Part shown: piece after piece, positions 3,220 to 49,539 of the stretch | Position numbering within the stretch: position 1 is the stretch's first letter | Layout of the letters: every line of letters begins with the position of its first letter | From: Labia minor | Lineage: Eukaryota > Arthropoda > Insecta > Dermaptera > Spongiphoridae | Assembly: GCA_963082975.1 (NCBI GenBank) | Contig: OY720345.1 | Coordinates: 79,329,034-79,393,033 of the forward strand | DNA length: 64,000 nucleotides | Reading direction: 5' to 3' | Position numbers and translations under genes: made by a program | Notes under the pieces: generated by a model | Databases searched by the model: none | The model's input: the letters and a program-made list of their open reading frames with translations, nothing else | Told to the model about the DNA's origin: nothing

Positions 3220-3740
3220 ATGGAAATTATTGCAAGGCAGTCACTGTCATATTCATCAACGGTGACACCAGTTGGCGATGTTTGCATTGCAGAATGTCAA
3301 ACTCACAATGGAAAAATTATTGTCATCGCAGCCATCTATATCTCACCAAATCAAAATTTAGACGATATTATTTATTTCATACACCGTTCACTACTGGTTT
3401 ATAGCCACACAGGTGCTAATGCACTTGAACGAGGCGAAGATAAAATCCCTCTAATTCTCGGGGGAGATTTTAATGTAAATTTTGGATCTGATGATTCGTT
3501 GCCGTTGATCATCTTTCTTCGAGAAACATTTGGTCTGCTTATAAATAACGAGATCCCAAGGAATCAACAACAAAATCTGGAACTACAATAGATGCTGTTT
3601 TTACACGTTATATAGAAAATATCGAATCACGAACATATATATCTTATTTTAGTTATCACAAGCCATTAATATCAGTATTACCAATTGAAGCACCAACCGA
3701 CAATAGTACAGGCAATGTAGATATGATGATAAAGTAGATA
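3220..3740 (+). pseudogene. Helentron-type endonuclease (EEP fold) remnant
   Basis: The open frame to 3591 and its continuation in another frame match the apurinic-endonuclease-like domain that Helentrons carry at the C-terminus of the Rep-helicase protein. Visible motifs are IAAIYISPNQNLDDI, ILGGDFNVNF (the catalytic GDFN), and after a frameshift TTIDAVFTRYIENIES and TYISYFSYHKPLIS. No Rep or helicase part is nearby. The start codon at 3220 follows the right TSD of the hAT, so the upstream part is probably lost or lies before the hAT. Confidence 0.66.
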
Positions 3741-4061: not shown

Positions 4062-4183
4062 TTATATTTTTTCTTTTCTATTTGTAATATAGTACATAAT
4101 ATACAGCAATGTATATTTTTTTCTCTCCTGGGGGGGGGGGGGGGGTTTAACCCCCAAAACCCCCCCCCTGGTTGCGCCACTGC
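4062..4183 (-). repeat. hAT-like terminus with long G run
   Basis: Reading the minus strand from 4183, the sequence starts CAGTGGCGCAACCAGG and runs into G tracts (about 16 G). Termini of the CAGTGGCG type are common at hAT-like elements. It interrupts the minus-strand endonuclease remnant exactly at its GG of ILGG. The other end was not found. Confidence 0.45.
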
Positions 4184-4436
4184 CCCCGAGAATTAGAGGG
4201 ATTTTATCTTCGCCTCGTCCAAGTGCATTAGCACCTGTGTGGCTATAAACCAGTAGTGAACGGTGTATGAAATAAATAATATCGTCTAAATTTTGATTTG
4301 GTGAGATATAGATGGCTGCGATGACAATAATGTACGCGCGCATACGCTCTGCTGCTGTTTTAGCTACTTTTTTTATTCCGGGTACATTTTTTCCTCCTTT
4401 AGTCCCTTGTGGTTGGTCGTTATTTTTTTTCTGCAT
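4184..4436 (-). pseudogene. Helentron-derived deletion copy (N-terminal motif joined to endonuclease)
   Basis: The minus frame begins MQKKNNDQPQGTKGGKN, contains KTAAERMRAY, a basic motif found near the N-terminus of several Helitron/Helentron proteins, and then passes directly into the endonuclease segment IYISPNQNLDDI. The endonuclease part closely matches the plus-strand copy at 3316-3462 and is cut at ILGG by a hAT-like terminus. The join of a distal N-terminal motif to the endonuclease implies an internal deletion. Confidence 0.55.
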
Positions 4437-6589: not shown

Positions 6590-7290
6590 GAACTTCGGGT
6601 ACTCAATAATAATAAATAAATAATATTAATAAATATTAAATGATATTTTAGTGAAGAAATATTAAAAATTATAAAACTATCTAAAAATTAATTAATAAAA
6701 TAAAATAAAAGAACAATGAATAAATAAATATAAAATAGTAATTTATTAAAAAATAATAGATTAAAAAAAAAAAAAAACTATTTTCCGCCGGTTTCGATCC
6801 TGCGAAGTTGAATTGTCAGACAGTCGCTCTACCCATTAGACTAATAATACTTAGATGATGAAAACGACATTTTTTACTCTCTTAGCAAGACGTATGTTTT
6901 TTTGTTTTTGTTTTTGTTTTTTTTTTGAGAGAGATTAATAAATATCTATATATATTTTATTAAAAATAAATATTTTTAATTTTATTTCGAAATTAAATAA
7001 TAAATTTTAAAATATTTTAAATAAAAAAAAATATTAATACAATTTCAGTTAAAAAATGGATGCCAATTTTGACGTTTTCCATATATAATTTTCAATTAAG
7101 AAATTAATAATGAAGCTGTATGTTTCAAGAGATATCATCAATAAAACTTAATTTTTCTTTATAAATACTATATCTATTGTGAATTTGAAAAAAATCGTTA
7201 GAGCGGTTTTTGAGAACCAATATATATAGATAAATAGATAGATAGATAGATATATACAATTTTAGCTAGCATAATAAGATAAGATTAATT
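6590..7290 (-). repeat. tRNA-like-module repeat, copy 1
   Basis: The body is shared with copies at 8335-8845, 27790-28335 and a split copy (45990-46222 plus 50441-50775). It ends on the plus strand with TTTTAGCTAGCATAATAAGA. At 6782-6850 the minus strand carries a tRNA-like stretch with an A-box-like TAGTCTAATGGGTAGAG and a B-box-like GGATCGAAACC, but the anticodon arm does not fold well. Possibly SINE-like; not a functional tRNA gene. Confidence 0.55.
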
Positions 7291-9044: not shown

Positions 9045-9395
9045 CACATACTAATTTTTATTCTTTGACCCAGTAGAGGCTGAGAAATATTATTCCGCGT
9101 CAACGTACTAGCGCGCATGCGCGCCATGGACTTTGGACCTAGCGAGTGGGTATTAGAACGAAAGACAGCACAAAAGGAAGACGCAGATAGCCTCTTTCTC
9201 AAGAACGAAAGACCGCACAAAAGGGAGACGGAGATAGAGGCTATCTCATTCTCACTCGTTAAATCTATATCTTTTTTCTCTCTTGCGTTACGAAATTTCA
9301 ATTTTTTTCTCTCTTGCGTTACGAAATTTCAATTTTTCAATTCACTCTCCATTCTCAACCAAATGTCAGGACGCCGCTAAAGAAGTTTCACTTCA
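9045..9395 (+). repeat. GC-richer block ending in GAAGTTTCACTTC palindrome
   Basis: This is an inverted relative of 1738-1985: both contain CGCGCATGCGCGC, CTCTCTTGCGTTACGAAATT, CCTGACATT-type sequence and the GCGGCG/CGCCGC plus palindrome end. A 31-bp unit (TTTTTCTCTCTTGCGTTACG...) is tandemly doubled at 9270-9330. No gene; probably the terminal part of a Helentron-like element. Confidence 0.45.
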
Positions 9396-9515
9396 AAAAA
9401 AGAAAATTTTGAATGATTTATATATTTATGCTTTTAAATTTAAAAGTTTTCTTTTTACAATATATATAAATAAATCAATCAAAATTTTATTATTCGTAAA
9501 TAAATGTTGAAAACA

Positions 9516-10275
9516 TTAAAATCTTGAGGAAATATTATAAGCATTTTGTAATTGTCCGTATACTTTTGATGATGGACTGCCAAGAATTAAACTACAAATT
9601 GCTCGTCTAGCAATTTGAATATTTTGAAAGGAACCCAAAATATGAATTTTTGAATTAGCTAAAGTGATTCGTGTTTTTGTTGAATTTTCAATTGTAAATT
9701 TAGTTCGGCCACTTTTGCCAGCCAAACGTCCAATTGCTCTTGAAACATGATCACCTTTCAATGGTCGAACATCTTGAATTTCAAACGATTCGACAAATAA
9801 ATCATCTAAACGTAATAAGGCTAGTGCATCTTCAATTGCAAATCCAAGAATAAATGCTTTTACAAAATCCGCTGCTTTTTGAAGATTGGCGATATTTTCA
9901 GTTTCTTCACATGAGCGAATTTCAACATTACGAGCTTTAACATTAAACCGAATTTGCAGGTGTAAATGCTCCACAATCGGGTTCACAATCTTAAGTCAAT
10001 TCTCTTTTAATGGTGTGAAGCGATTAGCAGGAACAGGTACTTTACGCATTTCATATTCTGATTTGGATTTAAAACGTTTTGCTGAAGAATCATTATTTCT
10101 TAATTCCGAATTAGCATCAGGCTCCATTGGATTGTCAGATGTACGTTTTCCTGACATTTTGAGAATAATCTAAAAATAAAATACCAATAAATAAAATATA
10201 TTTAAAAAATATATAAAAATATATTTAAAACCAAATAAAAAAAAACTAGATAAAAATAAAATAAAAATACTCACC
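9516..10275 (-). CDS. PNO1: PNO1/Dim2-type ribosome assembly factor with an in-frame TGA
   Basis: PNO1 is a KH-domain assembly factor of the small ribosomal subunit, acting in nucleolus and cytoplasm with Nob1. The ATG is at 10157; the frame to 9516 spells 213 codons, close to the family size. Visible conserved blocks: [15 protein letters not shown] (about 40-53), [57 protein letters not shown] (the KH GxxG) and HILGSFQNI. Codon 54, conserved tryptophan in the family, is TGA (9998-9996). Upstream, a canonical donor G|GTGAGT (10275/10274) and acceptor TTTTTAG (10170) define a 105-nt 5'UTR intron, arguing against a simple processed pseudogene. The rest of the frame is clean. Gene, recent pseudogene or base error cannot be separated from sequence alone. 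Confidence 0.78.
10170..10274 (-). other. 5'UTR intron of the PNO1-like gene
   Basis: Donor GTGAGTAT and T-rich acceptor ending TTTTTAG, 105 nt, lying 12 nt before the ATG. The upstream exon begins within a TTCTTTCG-containing stretch near 10290-10305; such pyrimidine starts are frequent in ribosome-assembly genes, but the start site is not known. Confidence 0.6.
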
Positions 10276-10329
10276 AAAATTATAGTAATTAAACGAAAGA
10301 ACACAATTAAATAGGCCCACGTGCACTAT

Positions 10330-10700
10330 GAACAATATGTGTACACAGTGGCGTACCTAGGGGGGTGCGGTGGGTGCGGTCCGCACCGGGCGGCACTTAT
10401 CTTGGGGCGGCATTTTTTATATTTAGTTATAGTTGTAAAAAGCAACTTATTCATTTCATATTTATTTTTTTTCTTTCTTGAATAATAAATGATTATTATG
10501 ATTATTATAAGTTTACTATTTGATTTATATAAATTATGATCAACTATATGATTTCGAATATTATTCCTCGGTGTATATAAATGCATTTTAGTGTAAATTT
10601 TGAATTCTAATTCCAAAAACAGGATAATAATTTTATTTTATTGTATTCATTAAAATTCGTTGAATTCGTAAACGCATCTTTACGATTTTTCTTTTGAAAA
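10330..10700. repeat. two hAT-like terminal sequences
   Basis: CAGTGGCGTACCTAGG starts near 10338, with a G/C-rich continuation, and CAGGGCCGGCG starts near 10703. Both look like left termini of hAT-like elements. Their partner ends and TSDs were not found. The interior is AT-rich with no transposase. Confidence 0.4.
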
Positions 10701-10704
10701 GCAG

Positions 10705-12017
10705 GGCCGGCGTTTCCTTTTGAAAAATACTCGGACGAATTTACCACCAAACTAAGCGAAATTCAAAATAGCTTGTCTCGTCTTCAACTCAAAGATACTT
10801 GTCTTAATCTCGAAATAAATAATGCAGGAAATGAGGAAGAATTATTGAACAAAATCCTAACCTTTTTATGTGACATTTACGGAGAAGAGGAGGAGGAGGA
10901 AACCGACGAGGAAGAACACACGAGTAGCGGAGAAAGAACAACGAATTCTGAAATAAATTATGAAACAACGCAGACGAGAGATGATCACCTGAAGCCAGTG
11001 AAAACGTTGCTAAACGCTGGAAAGGAACATAAAGAATACATTCTGATGAATGACCTAGTGTACAAATCACACAAAGGAAGAGACTTATTAGTTATTCCAG
11101 ACGTCGTAAAGAAATACCATGAAGAAAATGGGCACTTTGGTACTATCAAGACCAAAGATGTAATATTACGGGAATATTGGATCCCTCATTTGACGCCTAA
11201 AATTCAGGTTTGCATCAGTAACTGCATTCATTGTATCTTGGCGAACAGGAAGTCTGGAAAGGCTGAAGGATTTCTTAATCCGATATGTAAAGGCGAATCA
11301 TATCGACCATCTAGGGCCACTGCCTGCCACTTCTAGGTCTTACAACTATCTTTTTGTAGTGGCGGACGGATTTAGCAAGTTTGTTTGGTTGCACCCTACC
11401 AAAAGTCTGACTATTCAGGAGGTAATTTCTAAACTTGAAGTCCAAAAAAGCCTGTTTGGAAACCCAAAACGAATCATAGCTGACAGAGGAACCGCGTTCA
11501 CGTCAACTGAATTTCAAAATTAGTGCAAGAATGAGAAGATTGACTTAAACCACATAACTACAGGTGTACCTCGCGCGAACAACCAAGTCGAACGAACTAA
11601 TAGGATAGTGATCCCCGACCGAGTGCAAAAATTCATTAACACCACTTATCAGAGAGCGATAAATACTACACCGTTCGAATTACTGTTTGGAACTCGCTGT
11701 CGAGGAGCAGATGATCTACGACTTCAAGAAATAATTAAATCCGAATATTACCAATCTTTTAACGATGACCGCGAAGAATTACGAAAGAATGCTAGGGCCA
11801 GTATCCTTAAGCTCCAAGAAGAAAATAAAAGTACATATAATCGCAGAAGAAAAACAGCCCGAATGTACAGGCCCGATGACTTGTTTGCCATAAAAAGTAC
11901 CCAGTTAGCTAACAGAAGTACATAAATTGAAAACTCATTTCTTGGGCCCTATAGAGTTACCAGTCGTTGCGGTAAAGATCGGTATGAGGTGGAACGAGTG
12001 GAGCAAGTCTTTCATTT
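10705..12017 (+). pseudogene. Ty3/gypsy relic: gag head joined to integrase
   Basis: The open frame to 11336 starts with a SAP-like segment (LQLKDTCLNLEINNAG), an acidic stretch, then the integrase zinc-binding domain (YHEENGHFGTIKTKDVILRE, CISNCIHC). A frameshift follows near 11300. The core continues as HIDHLGPLPATSRSYN, IIADRGTAFTS and RANNQVERTNR, so the three catalytic acids D, D, E are recognisable, then RAINTTPFELLFGTR and a GPYRV-type tail. In-frame stops occur at 11521 and 11923. Protease, RT and RNase H are missing between gag and integrase, indicating a large deletion. The hAT at 12026 interrupts the 3' end. Confidence 0.75.
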
Positions 12018-12234
12018 GAATAGAGCAGTGGTTCTTAAACTGTGGTCCGCGGACCCCTGGGGGTCCGCGAAGCCTTTACTGGGGGTCCGCGGTCCTCGGA
12101 AAAAAATCATCGTAAAAATATATACATATATAAATATTTAAAGTTCATTGTGTAACTATATCCTCCTAGAGAATTACGGCTATAATTTAATACTATTAAT
12201 AATACTATTTTATTTTATTAAATTGATAATTATG

Positions 12235-12900
12235 TCAATTAATTTTTTGTGAATAAATAAACATATATAAAAAACTATATATAAAATTTGAATTTTCATC
12301 CATTCATTCATTTAAAATCATTTTTCGATTTTTCCTTTAAAATAACCCCTCTTAGGGACTCGGAAGGGGAGGCATATAAGGGAATTTTCTTTCACTTTGT
12401 TATTGGGGAAAACCAGGGGAGGGGACAGTCTTACCCGGAAAAACCCAAATTGTCAGCGTCCACTCTGGGGTTTTAAACAGTTTTAAAGCAAATGTTAATT
12501 ATAAGTTCATTTCTCAACGAGTTGTATCTTTAAATTATTTTTATTAATGTTAATTATAAGTTCATTTCTCAACGAGTTGTATCTTTAAATTATTTTTATT
12601 AATTTAATTAATTATAATTAAATTATAGCTAATAATAGTTTATTATAGCTAATAATTTTTTTTAATTTTTAGTGTAATTTGCATGATCATTATTTTATAA
12701 AAACACTAAACACATTTTGCAATTTCCCAGAAAGGCTGTTTTTGAGAGTAAGTATAAGTTAGTTTTATGAATAAAAAATATTTATTTTAATAATATTTTA
12801 GAATCAAATTACGAAATTAATAATATTTTAGAATCAAATTACGAAATTAATAATATTTTAGAATCAAATTACGAAATATATTTATTATATAAATTAATAT
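12235..12900 (-). repeat. AT-rich repeat inserted in the hAT 5' region
   Basis: This is the inverted counterpart of 4790-5340, including the GC-richer core (12340-12470) with TTGTCAGCGTCCACTCTGG. Internal direct duplications are visible (TTAATTATAAGTTCATTTC twice; TTAATAATATTTTAGAATC three times). It lengthens the 5' leader of the transposase gene; 12901-13080 carries further TTTAAAATGAT-type short repeats. Confidence 0.6.
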
Positions 12901-13106
12901 TCATTTAAAATGATATTAAATCATTTATTTAAAATGATTTAAAACATTTATTAAAATGATTTAAAACATTCATTTAAAATGATATTAAAACATTCATTTA
13001 AAATCATATTAAAACATAGCTAGTAAATAATAATTCGTTATATTTATATTATATTTATATTATATTTATATTATTGTAGTTCAATGTTAATAAATTACTC
13101 CATAAA

Positions 13107-14966
13107 ATGGATCGTTGGCTACAAACTGGTTCAACACAGAAACGGAAAGAATCAGATGATGAGGCATCAACAGCAAACTCTACCAAGAAACGCAAAACTA
13201 GAAAATATTCGGATGATTATTTATCATTTGGATTTACTTATATTTGCAACAATGATGTGGAAAGACCAGTCTGCGTTCTATGTCAGGAAAGTTTATCCAA
13301 TGAAAGTATGAAACCTGCTAATCTCAGACGTCATTTACAAACAAAGCACAGCGAGCATGTTAGTAAGTCTATCGAATTTTTTAAAATGAAAAAAGAAGAA
13401 CTTAATTCAAGTCAGAAATTGATGGTAAAGACGGGATCTGGTGGTATGAGTAAGAAAGCAGTAATGGCATCATATGAAGTAGCTCTACTTATTGCTAAAG
13501 CAGGAAAGCCGCATAATATAGCAGAGCAATTAATTCTTCCTGCTACAAAAGTAATTACAAATATAATGTTAGGAACTAAAGCAGCAAACGATATAAATTT
13601 GATTTCATTATCAAATGATACGGTTAAGAATAGGATTGAAGACATGTCATGTAATATAAAAGAAGAATTAATATCGAGAGTGCGCAAAAGTCACTATTAC
13701 TCATTACAATTGGATGAAAGTACTGATGTCACTAATAATGCCAATTTGTTAGCTTTCATTAGATATGAGTTTGAAAATCAAATACAAGAAGATGTATTGT
13801 TTTGTGATTCACTACCTTCACGAACGACAGCTAATGACATATTTAACAGTTTGAATAATTTTATAACCGAAAATGAAATAGAGTGGCCAAAATGTGTTGG
13901 AATTTGCACTGATGGTGCTCGTGCAATGTCAGGTACAAGAACTGGATTGATTGCTCTTATTAAAAATGTTGCGCCTCAGGTTGTTTGGAATCATTGCTGC
14001 ATTCACAGAGAATCATTAGCAGCCAAAAATATGTCACCAGATTTGAAAAGAACATTAGACGAAGTAGTTAAAATTGTCAATTTCATTAAGGCTCGTCCAC
14101 TTAATTCCAGAGTTTTTAAAATTTTGTGTGAGGAAATGGGTAGTCAACATACACATTTATTATTACATACAGATGTACGTTGGTTGTCCCGCGGGAAAGT
14201 ACTCATTCGCCTTTTTGAGCTTCGAGATGAAATACGATTGTTTTTAATAGATGCGCATTTTGAACTGACCGAATGTTTCAATGATTTTATCTGGTTAGCT
14301 AAGGTGGCTTACTTGACTGATATTTTTACAAAATTGAACGAACTTAATTTGAGCCTGCAAGGTACTGTTGTAAATATATTTAAAGTTGAAGATAAAATAG
14401 AAGCAATGATTAAAAAAATCGACTTGTGGTCGAAACGCATCCAGAACGGTGTATATGAGTCTTTTCCAACTCTCAATGATTTCATAGAAAGCTCCAGTGA
14501 AAAATTGCTTAATCAAACGCGTCAATTATTTGTTGAACATTTAATTACTTTGAAAAGCAACTTCAGGAAGTATTTTTCTACTCCTGATCCTTGCAATAAC
14601 TGGATCAGAGATCCATTTAATATGGAAATTACAAATACTAAACATTTATCTGCACCTGAACAAGATATTCTCGTGGAATTATCATGTGATACAACTTATA
14701 AACTAAAATTTAACAAAACTGAATTGAGCAACTTTTGGTTACTTCTCAGGTCAGATTATCCTGCGCTTGCAAATAAAGCACTTCAACACTTGATTCCATT
14801 CTGCACAACATATTTATGCGAACAAGCTTTTTCGGTACTATTTTATATTAAGTCTAAATATAGAAACAAATTAAATGTAGAGCCGGATCTTAGATTAAAA
14901 GTTTCCAATATTAAGCCAGATATTGAGATTCTTGTTTCAAGAAAACAACTGCATACATCTCATTAA
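13107..14966 (+). CDS. hAT transposase (BED finger, ZBED/SCAND3-like)
   Basis: Transposase of 619 aa, uninterrupted, which would cut and paste its own element by DNA hairpin-forming DDE chemistry. N-terminal basic segment (TKKRKTRKYS), a BED-type finger (CVLCQESL, then LRRHLQTKH, about 55-85), RNase-H-like core with LQLDESTDVTN (first D), GICTDGARAMSG (second D), the conserved NHCCIHRESL, and HTDVRWLSRG; the C-terminal dimerisation block TTYLCEQAFSVLFYIKSK contains the catalytic E. The ATG lies in CATAAAATGGA. Length and all key residues are as expected for active hAT proteins of this type. It lies inside a TSD-bounded element with AT-rich codons like the neighbourhood. Whether it is expressed is unknown. 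Confidence 0.9.
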   Translation: MDRWLQTGSTQKRKESDDEASTANSTKKRKTRKYSDDYLSFGFTYICNNDVERPVCVLCQESLSNESMKPANLRRHLQTKHSEHVSKSIEFFKMKKEELNSSQKLMVKTGSGGMSKKAVMASYEVALLIAKAGKPHNIAEQLILPATKVITNIMLGTKAANDINLISLSNDTVKNRIEDMSCNIKEELISRVRKSHYYSLQLDESTDVTNNANLLAFIRYEFENQIQEDVLFCDSLPSRTTANDIFNSLNNFITENEIEWPKCVGICTDGARAMSGTRTGLIALIKNVAPQVVWNHCCIHRESLAAKNMSPDLKRTLDEVVKIVNFIKARPLNSRVFKILCEEMGSQHTHLLLHTDVRWLSRGKVLIRLFELRDEIRLFLIDAHFELTECFNDFIWLAKVAYLTDIFTKLNELNLSLQGTVVNIFKVEDKIEAMIKKIDLWSKRIQNGVYESFPTLNDFIESSSEKLLNQTRQLFVEHLITLKSNFRKYFSTPDPCNNWIRDPFNMEITNTKHLSAPEQDILVELSCDTTYKLKFNKTELSNFWLLLRSDYPALANKALQHLIPFCTTYLCEQAFSVLFYIKSKYRNKLNVEPDLRLKVSNIKPDIEILVSRKQLHTSH

Positions 14967-15544
14967 ATATGTAAGTTATATTTAATGAGATAGATGCAGT
15001 TATTTTTTAAAATATTTCTTATTTAATATTTTCTGAAAAAAATTATAAAATATTTATATGAATTTAATGTAAGTACCCATTATAATTTGTGAGATTTGTT
15101 GCTATGACAATGTTTGTATTTTCTTTCTTCAATATTATAATTTCTAATAAAATGTGTTCTACAATATGCAAAAAAATCGTTATTCACCAATCACTGTTAG
15201 AAATATTCATCATATATCCTTGTCCTTATGAGATCGTAAGCCAGAAATTAATTAATAAAATGACGTAAAGTACCTAAAGTTGTGATGGGGGTCCGTCAAA
15301 AAAAATTTTTTCAAGTGGGGGTCCGTGGAGTACATAAGTTTAAGAACCTATGGAATAGAGGAAACTACGCAAATCTTACATACATATGAAATATCTTTTT
15401 TTATTTATTTTTAATATAAAAAAATATTTAATTTGAGATTAATTATATATAAAAATTTCTTGACCTAAAGCCAAACTTGGTTGAACGTATCGCCCTCTTG
15501 AGGACAATCATTTCTATCTCGGAACCATGGATGTAAATAATTAC

Positions 15545-15730
15545 CGAAATTAAAACTAATTTTTAAATAAAGCGCAAAATGTTTTTTTTATTGAATTGAA
15601 TTGTTGCTATCTTAAAGAAGATATTGTGTTATTATTTTGAGTGTCAATAAAAATCACAGAATATCGCTTTTAATACTTTTATAATACTTATTACCTTATA
15701 TATAATTTGTAATAGATTATACAATTAAAA
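15545..15730 (+). promoter_or_regulatory. 5' flank of zinc-finger copy (shared upstream region)
   Basis: This flank (TTGTTGCTATCTTAAAGAAG, then a TATATATAATTTGTAATAG stretch just before the ATG) is also found before the genes at 24240 and 28733 and, split, at 39755-39871 plus 42237-42254. It probably holds the family promoter; a TATATA stretch lies about 25 bp before the ATG. Element-level details are inference. Confidence 0.5.
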
Positions 15731-15958
15731 ATGGATCTTTATTCACACGAAGACATAAAATATCCAATATATAAAGGTAATTTTTAAATTTATCTAAATT
15801 ATTGTTAATTTTCACTAGTATTATATTTTTAAATATATTTCTAATGATATTCATTATATAGATTTTTAAAATAGTTAGAAAATAATTTAATATAATGAAA
15901 ATAAAATTGTTTTAGGTCCTTTATATCCTTGCGAATATTGCTACTCAAATTATATAAA
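15731..15958 (+). pseudogene. zinc-finger gene copy cut by a Helitron-like end
   Basis: Exon 1 (15731-15776, MDLYSHEDIKYPIYK) and donor GTAAT, a 139-nt intron ending TTTTAG at 15915, and exon 2 from 15916 (PLYPCEYCYSNYI) match the two downstream genes. Exon 2 is cut after ATATAAA at 15958, where a GC-rich hairpin terminus begins. All tandem fingers are missing here. The donor is GTAAT rather than GTAAG. Confidence 0.82.
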
Positions 15959-24239: not shown

Positions 24240-25476
24240 ATGGATCCTTATTCACAGGAAGACATAAAATATCCAATATATATAGGTAAGTTTTATATTC
24301 ATCTAAATTATTGTTACATTTCACTAGTATTATATTTTTAAATATATTTCTATTGATATTCATTATATAGATTTATAAAATAATTAGAAAATGATTTAAC
24401 ATAATTAAAATAAACATGTTTTAGGTCCTTTATATCCTTGCGAATATTGCTACTCAAATTATATAAATGAGGAATTTTTATCTAAACATTTAAAAAGATG
24501 TACTTTTAAACAAATATTTTCAATTTTAAAAAATAAATTAAAACTCGAAAATGATACAGTTGAATATTCCAAGGAAAACAGTCATGACGAAAAACTTGAA
24601 AATACTGATTCAAACAATATAGAGGCCAGACGTTTTGAATGTAATTATTGTGAAAAGAAATTTAATTGGAAATCTACTTTAAATACACATTTATTAATTC
24701 ATACAAGTGAAAAGCCTTTTGAATGTAATTATTGTAAAAAGAAATTTGATCAGAAATGTGATTTAAAGGGACATTTATTAATTCATACAGGCGAAAGGCC
24801 TTTTGAGTGTAATTATTATAAAAATAAATTTAATCAGAAATTTATTTTAGATAGACATTTATTAATTCATACAGGAGAAAAGCCTTTTGAATGTAATTAT
24901 TGTAAAAAGAAATTGAATACGAAATCTAATTTAAATAATCATTTATTAATTCATACAGGAGAAAAGCCTTTTGAATGTAATTATTGTAAAAAAAAATTTA
25001 ATACGAAATCACATTTAAAAGTACATTTATTAATTCATACTGGTGAAAAGCCTTTTGAATGTAATTATTGTAAAAAGAAATTTAATAGGAAATCATATTT
25101 AAAAGGACATATATTAATTCATACAGGTGAAAAGCCTTTTGAATGTAATTATTGTAAAAAGAAATTGAATACGAAATCTAATTTAAATAATCATTTATTA
25201 ATTCATACAGGAGAAAAGCCTTTTGAATGTAATTATTGTAAAAAAAAATTTAATATGAAATCACATTTAAAAGTACATTTATTAATTCATACTGGTGAAA
25301 AGCCTTTTGAATGTAATTATTGTAAAAAGAAATTTAATAGGAAATCATATTTAAAAGGACATATATTAATTCATACAGGTGAAAAGCCTTTTGAATGTAA
25401 TTTTTGTAAAAAGAAATTTATACAAAAAACACATTTTAATAATCATTTATTAATTCATACAGGTGAAAACTCTTAA
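24240..25476 (+). CDS. C2H2 zinc-finger protein, intact, one intron
   Basis: Probable nuclear DNA-binding protein of 365 aa. Exon 1 24240-24285 (MDPYSQEDIKYPIYI), intron 24286-24424 (GTAAG...TTTTAG), exon 2 24425-25476. The N-terminus has a CEYC...HLKRC motif (about 20-40), a C2HC-type finger, then a linker and ten C2H2 units (CX2CX12HX3H) joined by TGEKP linkers. Finger 3 of the array has Tyr for its second Cys (CNYYKNKF) and is likely misfolded. Fingers 4-6 and 7-9 are a near-identical 252-bp duplication. Nearly all Leu codons are TTA, in line with local AT content. A polyadenylation signal AATAAA lies at 25511-25516. The target DNA and role are unknown; many insect C2H2 arrays of this kind are repressors, but nothing here shows that. 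Confidence 0.85.
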
Positions 25477-28732: not shown

Positions 28733-30240
<1,508 letters not shown>

Positions 30241-35565: not shown

Positions 35566-36630
35566 TTAAAACATACAAAATGGAAAATGTACAGTTCTTC
35601 CGGAGCGTTTTGTGGTGTATTGTGGCGTTGGAGTTGTATTGTGATTCAGTGGAATTGTAGCTGGACTCTGGGGTGGTGTAGGTGGAGATTGATCCTGTGC
35701 CTGTGGTCTAGGTTGAACTTCTTGAGGTCCTTCATCAAATTGACTTGATTGTAGAAAGGCTGGTTTCAGTCTGTCGATATTAATAGTTTTGTTTCCTCTC
35801 GGTATGTCGATATCGAAGGTCTTTTCACCTCGTTTTAGAACTTTGTACGGTCCATCGTAAACGGGTTGTAAGGACTTTTTCAAAGCATCGTGTCGAATGA
35901 AAACATGTGATGAATTCGCTAGTTCCTTATGAATGAATACATTTCTCTTAGAGTGGTGTTTTTCTAATATTGGCTGTAAATGTTTCATCTGTTGACGGAG
36001 TTGATAAAGAAATGTTTCCATATTTGAATCATCTTCCCTAGGTGGTTTATTATCTAAGAAATCGGTTGGTAAGCGTATTGGTATTCCGTAAAACATTTCT
36101 GCTGTAGTTGTATTATATTTTGGTATGATATATGAGCGTAATCCCATCATAACTGTAGGTAGTTTGACAGTCCAGTTGTCTGTAAGTTGTGTCCTGAGAG
36201 CGGATTTGAGACAGCGATGCCATCTTTCAATTTTTCCATTTGAAGCTGGATGATATGCTGTTGTTATGATTTGATGGATTCCTAGAATTTTGGTGAGTAT
36301 TTCAAATAGTTTACATTCAAATTGCTTGCCGCGGTCAGTTGTGATGTATTTAGGTATTCCAAATCGTGAGATCCCTGTGGTAAGTAGAACGGATGCTATG
36401 GTTTCGGCAGAAATGTCCACTACAGGTGTAGCTTCCGGCCATCTAGAAAACCTATCGATCATCGTGACAAGGTAAGTATAACCTTGGGATGGTGGTAGTG
36501 GTCCTACGATATCGATGTTAATGTGACTAAAACGTCCATCTACTTTATTGTATGAGCCAATTGCACTTGTTGTGTGTCTCCATATTTTTGATCGTTGACA
36601 TGGAATACATGCTTTTGCCCAAGTACACAT
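35566..36630 (-). pseudogene. gypsy integrase
   Basis: A 354-aa frame with [12 protein letters not shown], then [19 protein letters not shown] (first D), [15 protein letters not shown] (second D), [14 protein letters not shown] (E), a [10 protein letters not shown] loop, and a C-terminal [15 protein letters not shown]. All three catalytic acids are present. A proline/glutamine-rich tail ends [10 protein letters not shown], as in CsRn1-like integrases. The zinc-binding HHCC is partly in the preceding frame, so the polyprotein is broken near 36600. Confidence 0.85.
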
Positions 36631-37578
36631 CGCTTTTAAGGGATGGCCATACGAAACGTTGCTGTATTAAATCAACTGATGCTCTAATTCCTGAATGTGC
36701 GAGGTTGTGAAGAGCTTCAAAAACGGTATATCTCATTTCTGGGGGAATATACGGTCTCAGTTGATCCGTTGATTTGTCGCAAATTATTTCTGAATTATCT
36801 GGGAGGGTAAGTGTTACCAATTGTAGAGAACATGAGGATGAATTTTTCAGATGACTGAGTTCTTTATCTTCCTTTTGTAACTTAGCCACTTCTTCCAACG
36901 AAATAGCAGATGGAAAGGTAATGGAATTTATTCTTGAGAAAGTATCGGCTGGAATATTTTCTTTCCCAGGAAGATAACGTATATCGGTGGTGAATTGTCC
37001 GATGTAATCGAGATGCCGAAGCTGTCGTGGAGTTGCTTTGTTCGGATTTTGTCTGAAAGCAAAGGTAAGTGGCTTATGATCTGTATACAGGATAAATTCT
37101 CTACCTTCTAACATATGTCGGAAATGTTTGATGGCAAGGTAAGCCGCTAACAATTCTCTGTCATATGTGCTGTACTTGGTTTGAGTTTCAGTGAAGGTTT
37201 TCGAGAAAAAGCCAAGTGGTTCAGGAATACCTTGTCTGACCTGGTGCAAAGAAGCTCCGACTGCATAGTCTGATGCATCCACCATCATTGTGAAATGTAA
37301 GTTAGCTGAAGGGTGAGCCAACATTACTGCGTTAGCCAATTGCTCCTTTACTTTTTCAAAAGCTTGCTGGGCTTCCGATGTCCACTGAACTTTCCTCTTG
37401 TCTTTCTTTCTGGTATCTTTACACAGATTGAAAAGAATTTGTTGAGAACAAGCTGTATGTGGTAATGAACGTCTATAAAAATTAATAAGTCAAAGGAATC
37501 TGCGGAGTTCAGCAATTGTATCCGGTAAATGAAATTCTTTAACATTCTTAACTCAGTCTGGGAGTGGTGAAATTCCAT
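36631..37578 (-). pseudogene. gypsy RNase H and linker
   Basis: MMVDASDYAVGASLHQV (RNase H first D), PLGFFSKTFTETQTKYSTYDRELLA, FILYTDHKPLTFAF and RQLRHLDYIGQFTTDIRYL are clear; the connection ends LVTLTLPDNSEIICD and LHNLAHSGIRAS, the start of the integrase finger. Frame changes occur near 37345 (RT thumb) and 36600. Confidence 0.8.
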
Positions 37579-38142
37579 TTCGTGATATAGAATATCCTAA
37601 AAACGAAATTTCAGGCACGCCGAAAATGCATTTGGAAAGTTGAATATTAATGGAGTATTTGTTTAGTCCTTCGAATAGAGGATGTAAATGAGACACATGT
37701 TCTTCTTCTGTCTTTGAAGCTATTAATATGTCATCAATGTATGCATAAACAAAATCTAAATTTCGAAGAATTGTGTGAATATAGCGTTGAAATGACTGTG
37801 CCGCGTTTCTGATACCAAATGGCATTCTGAGAAACTCGAATAGTCCAAAAGGAGTTATAATAGCTGTTTTATGAATATCTTCAGGTGCTATTGGAATGTG
37901 ATGATATGCCTTAACGAGATCAATTTTCGAGAAAATTGTTTTCTCGCTTAGCTGACTATTAAAATTGGAATTGGGTAGCAATCTGGGACAGTAACAGCGT
38001 TGAGTGCTCGATAGTCGCCGCATGGTCTCCACGATCCATCCTTTTTAGTAACAATATGCAAAGGACTGGACCACGAGCTGTTTGGTGGTCTACATATTTC
38101 TAAATCAATCATATGTTGAAATTCGCGTTTCGCTTGAGCCAT
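37553..38142 (-). pseudogene. gypsy reverse transcriptase
   Basis: Frames carry [75 protein letters not shown] and [12 protein letters not shown], the YIDD catalytic motif. A frameshift lies near 37950-37970. Confidence 0.85.
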
Positions 38143-46749: not shown

Positions 46750-49539
46750 TTAATTTTCAATCCACCAGTATTTTTTTTTCGCGATATTATCACTCTTATC
46801 TCTTTTTGAGATTGCCATATTGAAACGCCAGAATCTATAATGATCTTTTCCATCTAAGAAGGGATCGTAAGTTATGCTTCGGTCAGTACTTTTCCTAAAT
46901 ATATGATAAATAATTGGAATTTTGTTTGAGTCCTGGATGTAGCCATTTGCGTCCAAATAGGTAAATGCTTCAGGTGGGATAAAGCCTGAAATTAGGGTTC
47001 GCCTAAAGTACATGTCGTTAGGGTATGAAGCCCCGTAGATTAAGCTATTTTCTCGAATGTTGATTATTTTACTAAAGTAATTGCGGATTAATTTAATTAT
47101 AAATATGTCAATTCTGTTTAAATTAGAAAAGTTGTATATTATTTCGTTACTAAAATATTTTTTGTAATCTGATTCAGGGGATCTGTATTTACCCAGACAT
47201 GCTCTTAGGCAACTCCTTTCAAATTTTCTTATTGATTCCATTACTGAGGCTGTTTGGTTGAACCAAATGCAACATCCGTATGTAATTATTGGCCGAACAA
47301 ATAAGCTATAACATAAAATTTTTAATTTTGGGTCTAGATAAGGACAGTAGAATAACTTTTTTAATCCCATGAAAGCCGATCTAGCTTTATCTAATTGGTT
47401 TTTGACATGTTTATTGAATAGAAGACGTTCGTCTAAGTAAACTCCTAAGTATCTGACTAAGCTTTTGTGTGGAATATTTTGTCCGTTAATTTTAATTTGA
47501 AATTTTTTCTAATTTAATTTTGTGTTAAGATTACATCTAGCAATTAGGGGCCTAAATAGAATAGTTTCACATTTATTGATATTAATTTTTAATTTCCAAG
47601 AATGATAAAAAGAAAAGATTTTGCCTACTAAGATTTCAAGATCATGTTGTAGTTGTTTAGACTTTGTGCCCGACAGATAGACGATTAAATCGTCTGCGAA
47701 GGCAATTCCATATTTACCCTTTGTTTCGTTCAGGCCATATGCAGTGAGAATATCGCTAATAAATATGTTGAATAATACTGGCGAGTTTATTGTACCCTGT
47801 TGTAAACCATTTGTGACTTGGCATTGAATAGAAGACACAGTGTCATTGTTAAATGTAACGAAAGATCTTCCTTCGATCATATTCCAAATGAATTTAATCA
47901 GGTTTTCATCGAAACCTTTTGTTAACATTTTGTAAATAAGACCTTCACGCCATACAGTATCAAAGGCCTTTTCCACGTCGATCAGACAAGCTGCAACTAC
48001 TTCATTATTATTTAATGACCAGTAAATATCGGAGGTGAGTTTCGAAATAGCATGTACTGTTGAATGTTTAAAGCGAAACCCGAATTGTGATTCTGGGAGA
48101 ACATTTAAACTTTCCATAGCGGAGACCAGTCTTTTGTTTATCAACACTTCAAGGATTTTACCTACATTAGATAATAGGCTGATCGGACGAAGGTTTGACA
48201 TAGAGGAGGGGTTTTTACCTTTTTTAGGGATAGCAATTACATTGGCTTTTTTCCATTTTTCAGGAAAGTAGCCATTGTTAAGTGAGTTGTTGAATATAAT
48301 TGTGTATATTTTAATAATTTTCTTTGGCAGGCGTTTTAAAGCACAATTAGGTATCTTGTCCGGGCCTGTCGACTTTTTATTATTTAGATGTCTGATAATA
48401 TTCTTGACTTCATTGAATTGTGTTAAGAATGGGTCTTGGTGTTGGGTAGGAAATGTTGATTTATTGCTATGGGAGAAAGTGGTTATTGTTTTGTTGTTAT
48501 GAGCGTCCCTTACTATTTTTTCTTTGAGTTGGTTAATTTTGGAATTTATTATGTTAGAGAGACCTGGTTTTCCCATGTCTTCGTTTTGTTTATGGGTTAG
48601 AGAAAAGTGGCAGGCTATTATGTTAAGTTTATCTTTTGTGTCAAAAATTTCAAAGTTTCCAGATGAATTTTTGTTTTGTTTATGTATGTTAATATTTGCC
48701 ATTCTTATTAAATCGGAATTGTTTTTGTCAATTTCTATTTTATTGGGGAAAGAGTTTTTATTTTTATTTCTAAATAATGAATTTATTTTAGGGAAGGTCT
48801 CGAGGGAGTTATTTAACGGAATAGTTTCAATTTTGTCTTTCCAATATTTGTTTATTGCAAGCGAATATTCTTTGGAAAGTTTTTGCCTCGTAAGGGAAAG
48901 TAGATGTTTCAGTTCTTTGAATTCAGTGGAATTTATGTTTAAGTTTTTTCTATAGAAACTATTTATTTGTGAAACGAGGAAGCTTTTTGCTTTATTTAAT
49001 TTTTTAATTTTATTATTTAAATATTTATTAACTGAATTTTGATATTTAATTGGCGGAGTAGATTTGTGTAGAGCTTTCAGTATATGGTTTTCGATTAGAA
49101 TTATTGAGCTATCTATTTCATCATTATTTAGATTTTTTGTCTGGGATATGTTCAGAGGAATATTTTTGTTAAGAAGATCTTGGAAGTGATTCCAGTTGGT
49201 TTTATTGAAATTAAATTTAGTACTGAATTTCTCAATCAAAAAGTTTTTGGGTTGGGATAAATCTATTTTAAATAATGCTAATAAGCCAAGATGATCACTA
49301 TCAAAGTAAATAGTGGGTAGTTGATTTTCATTCAATGAGTTAAGAATATTGAGACGCGAATCCAAGAATATTAAATCCAGGTATGAAGAGCATCTGGGAT
49401 ATGAAGGAAAATCCGAAAAAACGAATTTCATTCTGAATTTAATTTGGTTTTCGGTGAACCAATTTCTAAGGCTTTTTCCTCTAAAATCATTTAATTTATT
49501 ATTCCAGAGACGATGTTTTGCATTGAAGTTGCCTGCCAT
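46750..49539 (-). pseudogene. Jockey-like ORF2 (endonuclease C-terminus, RT), one stop
   Basis: Encodes the enzyme that nicks the target and copies LINE RNA. MAGNFNAKHRLWNNKLND is the C-terminal endonuclease motif, then SYLDLIFLDSRL and DSDHLGLL; RT blocks KKANVIAIPKKGKNPS, NLRPISLLSNVGKILE, QFGFRFKHSTVHAI, CLIDVEKAFDTVWREGL, GLQQGTINSPVLFNIFISD and AFADDLIVYLSG (catalytic FADD). A single TAG (47511-47509) interrupts the frame, which then continues (INGQNIPHKS, then MGLKKLFYCPYLDPKLKI) to YRFWRFNMAIS and the stop at 46750. Apart from this stop the frame is intact over 2.8 kb. Confidence 0.88.

Follow-up and report, generated by a model that had tools for sequence, protein, structure and literature searches.

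An in-frame TGA at a conserved tryptophan of a PNO1 copy in Labia minor: probable decay of a young duplicated pseudogene

Background

PNO1, or Dim2, is a KH-domain factor in the assembly of the small ribosomal subunit, and one publication (PMC3461026) reports that mice homozygous for a Pno1 knock-out die early. Unprocessed pseudogenes are gene copies made at the DNA level, introns included, that have been disabled by lesions such as premature stops. Among the literature matches listed for PNO1 and pseudogene, no such case was found in the titles or the openings of the abstracts.

The stretch investigated here, 64,000 nucleotides of Labia minor DNA to which we refer as the window, contains a PNO1-like gene with a single TGA in the place of a tryptophan codon. 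A first-pass annotation regarded this as a puzzle, as PNO1 is essential in known eukaryotes. Is the TGA a base error? Is it read through, or edited to UGG in the mRNA? Is it one allele of a working gene? Or, is the gene a young pseudogene with an intact copy elsewhere? Here we investigate the window copy together with the PNO1 copies found in the assembly.

Results and discussion

The PNO1 copy in the window

The coding region lies on the minus strand at 9516..10157 and comprises 213 codons, from an ATG at 10157 to a TAA (codon 214) that ends at 9516. Codon 54 is TGA (9998-9996), and no other in-frame stop precedes the final TAA, just as the first-pass annotation described. The two alternative frames of the same strand over 10157-9516 contain 9 and 26 stops, so the open PNO1 frame is not due to chance. 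The TGA is the only lesion in the coding region, and the splice sites and an AATAAA are intact. Reinitiation at a later ATG was rejected, since no in-frame ATG is present 3' of codon 54.

The 5' UTR intron that had been proposed is predicted at 10170..10274 on the minus strand, where a 105 nt GTGAGT...TTTTTAG sequence was read by eye. It is preceded on that strand by the exon 1 region (10275..10341), in which the block in common with the intact copy described below starts; the two differ at 1 of its 67 nt. Upstream of exon 1 is the end of a high-copy repeat. No tRNA was reported in the window by ARAGORN with the bacterial code, and no structural RNA by Rfam at gathering scores.

The 159-codon part 3' of the TGA matches the Pfam family PF22891 (KH_PNO1_2nd; 1.1e-37) and the PDB chain 6g18_x, 'RNA-binding protein PNO1' (3.3e-72), which we take from its entry code to be human. 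The KH_PNO1_2nd match covers codons 121-205. With the intact copy as the query, PDB PNO1 chains are matched from codon 34 to 206 in the best chain. Codon 54 aligns to tryptophan in all five distinct eukaryotic PNO1 chain sequences matched in PDB, each of the five alignments having been inspected; judged from the entry codes, these chains are presumably from human, yeast and Chaetomium. The TGA does therefore replace a conserved tryptophan.

PNO1 copies in the genome

The search for a second PNO1 that the first-pass annotation had proposed was run on the whole assembly (604 Mb, 71 contigs). A six-frame search with PF22891 gave five matches at four loci, all five candidates being scored. A DNA search with window positions 9400-10380 gave 41 matches among the best 40 of 865 candidates, 4 long and 37 short. 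The four long matches are the same four loci, and 34 of the short ones fall on the first 38–60 bases of the query, the end of the common repeat upstream of exon 1. A further PNO1, strongly split by introns, may be present elsewhere in the genome.

One of the loci, L006 (C2:49748677-49749318, minus strand), is intact. It has 213 codons, TGG at codon 54 and the 5' UTR intron, and shares 208 of 213 residues with the window copy. Both are on one contig, 29.6 Mb apart. The second, L007 (C2:79478210-79478850, minus strand), is on this contig as well, 139.66 kb from the window copy; it has the same TGA at codon 54 and a 1-nt deletion at codon 55. The third, L008 (C1:51205184-51205820, plus strand), has TGG at codon 54 and a 5-nt deletion at codons 171-172; most of its exon 1 is missing, as judged by eye. 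The stop site (window 9996..9998, minus strand) thus already has G rather than A in two of the four genomic copies. The GT and AG of the intron are retained in all four, with the intron shortened in L008.

Codon 84 encodes lysine in L006 and in human and Chaetomium PNO1, and glutamate in all three damaged copies; in yeast PNO1 the aligned residue depends on gap placement. At least the change to Glu84 therefore falls on the damaged line. L006 differs from the damaged copies at three more sites; placing those changes needs an outgroup, codon 84 being the only one polarised. Together with its intact frame, Lys84 speaks for L006 as the parent copy and its location as the ancestral site; no gene was identified beside it.

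With an intact PNO1 elsewhere in the genome, the TGA looks like ordinary decay, not recoding or editing. Such an intact gene is one half of what the first-pass annotation had named as refuting evidence, the other being a lack of transcription at the window copy. We consider the window copy to be a young unprocessed, that is DNA-level, duplicated pseudogene of PNO1, with a probability of about 95%. It has an intact relative in the same genome and a disabling TGA followed by no ATG in frame. A retrocopy was rejected, since the intron is kept and no poly(A) tract was seen by eye at the end of the copied block. The argument from essentiality fails, since L006 is intact and can supply the function, and with it the puzzle disappears. 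L006 most likely makes the PNO1 protein.

A segmental duplication with the TGA

The sequence between a point 20 kb left of the window and C2:79543000 was divided at the window end, and the first portion was compared with the remainder. Window positions 9395-12025 and 15353-15958, and stretches left of the window, are collinear with C2:79473065-79481325, a segmental duplication of about 8 kb. Its in-window part (9395..15958) is interrupted at 12025-15353, and it continues beyond the window on the left of a large insertion. The six blocks contain 8112 aligned bases with 56 mismatches (0.69%) and 18 gap openings, in a count restricted to blocks of at least 400 columns and more than 95% identity. 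Since the TGA is found in both duplicates, it is older than the segmental duplication.

Two insertions in the window are absent in L007. The first, of about 12.65 kb, is directly behind the window PNO1, from about -3256 to 9394 (C2:79325777-79338427; window numbers below 1 are left of the window, with 0 counted). It breaks off the 3' flank of the window copy (9395..9515, minus strand) at 9395. The sequence GAAGTGAAACTTCTT is present near both of its ends, and its first 462 bases are repeated in inverted orientation within it, at insertion bases 6716-7179, with 97.8% identity. By eye we take its contents to be mariner-like and other transposon pieces; two of its open frames, at window 3220-3591 and 4062-4436, matched no Pfam family. 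The second insertion, at 12025-15353 (about 3.3 kb), contains an open frame of 619 codons whose match to hAT dimerisation is weak and below the Pfam cut-off. The matches that flank it overlap by 8 bases at the empty site in L007, which is what a hAT target duplication would give.

Open frames with C2H2 zinc-finger arrays are found near transposons at window 24913-25476 and 29412-29969 (Pfam) and at L008:2001-2459 (by eye). Upstream of PNO1, L007 and L008 are also 87% similar over a stretch that overlaps the L008 zinc-finger frame. The window's minus strand has two broken retrotransposon frames, both in transposon-rich surroundings. The one at 35566-38032 has reverse transcriptase, RNase H and integrase pieces, and the one at 47509-49539 has endonuclease and reverse transcriptase.

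Divergence, selection and other explanations for the TGA

Is the coding region of the damaged copies still under selection? Besides the TGA, the four coding regions together show 8 substitutions, 6 nonsynonymous (codons 3, 10, 20, 59, 84 and 185) and 2 synonymous (codons 136 and 210). Codons 3, 20, 59 and 84 distinguish L006 and codons 10, 136 and 185 distinguish L007, whereas the TCC at codon 210 is found only in the window copy and L007. The nonsynonymous share expected with no selection is 0.70 to 0.76, depending on transition weight, and 0.733 was used. The probability of at least 6 nonsynonymous changes in 8 is 0.64 at an omega of 1, 0.27 at 0.5, 0.027 at 0.2 and 0.002 at 0.1. For this small sample the result is near the expectation without selection and argues against an omega of 0.2 or less, while being compatible with moderate constraint (omega 0.5). 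It suggests no clear constraint at the protein level.

The coding regions are less diverged than the sequences around them when L006 is compared with the damaged copies. L006 and L008 differ at 4 of 637 coding bases versus 17 of 385 in the intron and 3' flank (Fisher P 1e-4); a second alignment gives 14 of 383 for the latter. They have no synonymous differences in the coding region, though L008 is broken. Transversions make up 10 of the 13 3' flank differences on the second alignment, and none of those in the coding region. Similarly, L006 and L007 differ at 9 of 641 coding bases versus 35 of 492 bases of 3' flank. Between L007 and L008 there is no difference in rate (coding 5/636, noncoding 5/394, P 0.52).

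The low coding divergence would be explained equally by constraint that lasted for some time after duplication, by gene conversion across the coding region, or by faster mutation in the A+T-rich flanks. It counts against the pseudogene reading, as do the single coding lesion of the window copy and its intact splice sites and AATAAA, and it hints that the copy line was in the past partly constrained or homogenised by gene conversion. There is a slim chance that transcription of the window copy continues and that low-level bypass of its UGA gives a second PNO1 with Glu84. If so, the low coding divergence would be left over from a recent time when two PNO1 genes worked and were kept similar by selection or gene conversion.

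It is very improbable that the TGA is read through, or the mRNA edited to UGG, in such a way that the window copy still gives PNO1. In its favour are a 213-codon frame that is otherwise open and has kept its splice sites and poly(A) signal, and the low coding divergence from the intact copy, which would fit continued constraint, but the substitutions themselves suggest no clear constraint and an intact PNO1 exists. UGA followed by C, as in the window, is a leaky stop context. Against editing, the target A is preceded by G, a context that ADAR disfavours. Either process would need maintaining, yet the open frame behind the stop is not kept in L007, the sole other copy found with the TGA, where the 1-nt deletion directly follows it; this counts against both. 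Neither of these options, which the first-pass annotation had raised, is needed.

We give equally little credence to the TGA as a segregating allele of a second PNO1 gene that still works. The window copy and L008 differ at only 2 of 637 aligned coding bases and one indel, which points to recent loss, but the TGA predates the segmental duplication and L007 has an additional frameshift. A base-calling or assembly error, the former another early suggestion, is hardly credible, because one contig has the same TGA at two loci that lie 139.66 kb from each other and are distinguished by three other coding bases, one coding indel and two large insertions.

A proposed history

The pseudogene reading suggests the following history. 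A block of about 1.3 kb, comprising exon 1, the 5' UTR intron, the only coding exon and some 500 bases of the 3' flank, would have been copied from L006, a direction that we infer. The copy line would then have gained amino-acid changes, including Lys84 to Glu at a conserved site, before codon 54 changed from TGG to TGA. Later, a segment of about 8 kb with the broken copy was duplicated 140 kb away. The duplicates have since diverged, the window copy probably by gaining the 12.65-kb transposon nest and the hAT-like element, and L007 through its frameshift. Translation of any transcript of the window copy would end after 53 codons, ahead of the KH_PNO1_2nd match, and the window copy probably yields no product.

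The whole-genome search shows how a premature stop in an essential gene can be resolved; otherwise the significance is mainly one of annotation. A gene caller may treat the window copy as a PNO1 that is truncated or recoded, overlooking the intact gene 29.6 Mb away.

Comparison with known systems

The resemblance to PNO1/Dim2 extends over codons 34-206 of L006 and, in the window copy, from codon 55 on. Unlike a working PNO1, the frame of the window copy is cut at codon 54, before KH_PNO1_2nd (codons 121-205), and has no later ATG. As in other unprocessed pseudogenes, the copy is a DNA-level one with its intron and has a premature stop; the other damaged copies have frameshifts, and there is an intact relative. 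The window copy is unlike them in having one coding lesion, and in a coding region less diverged from the intact copy than are its flanks.
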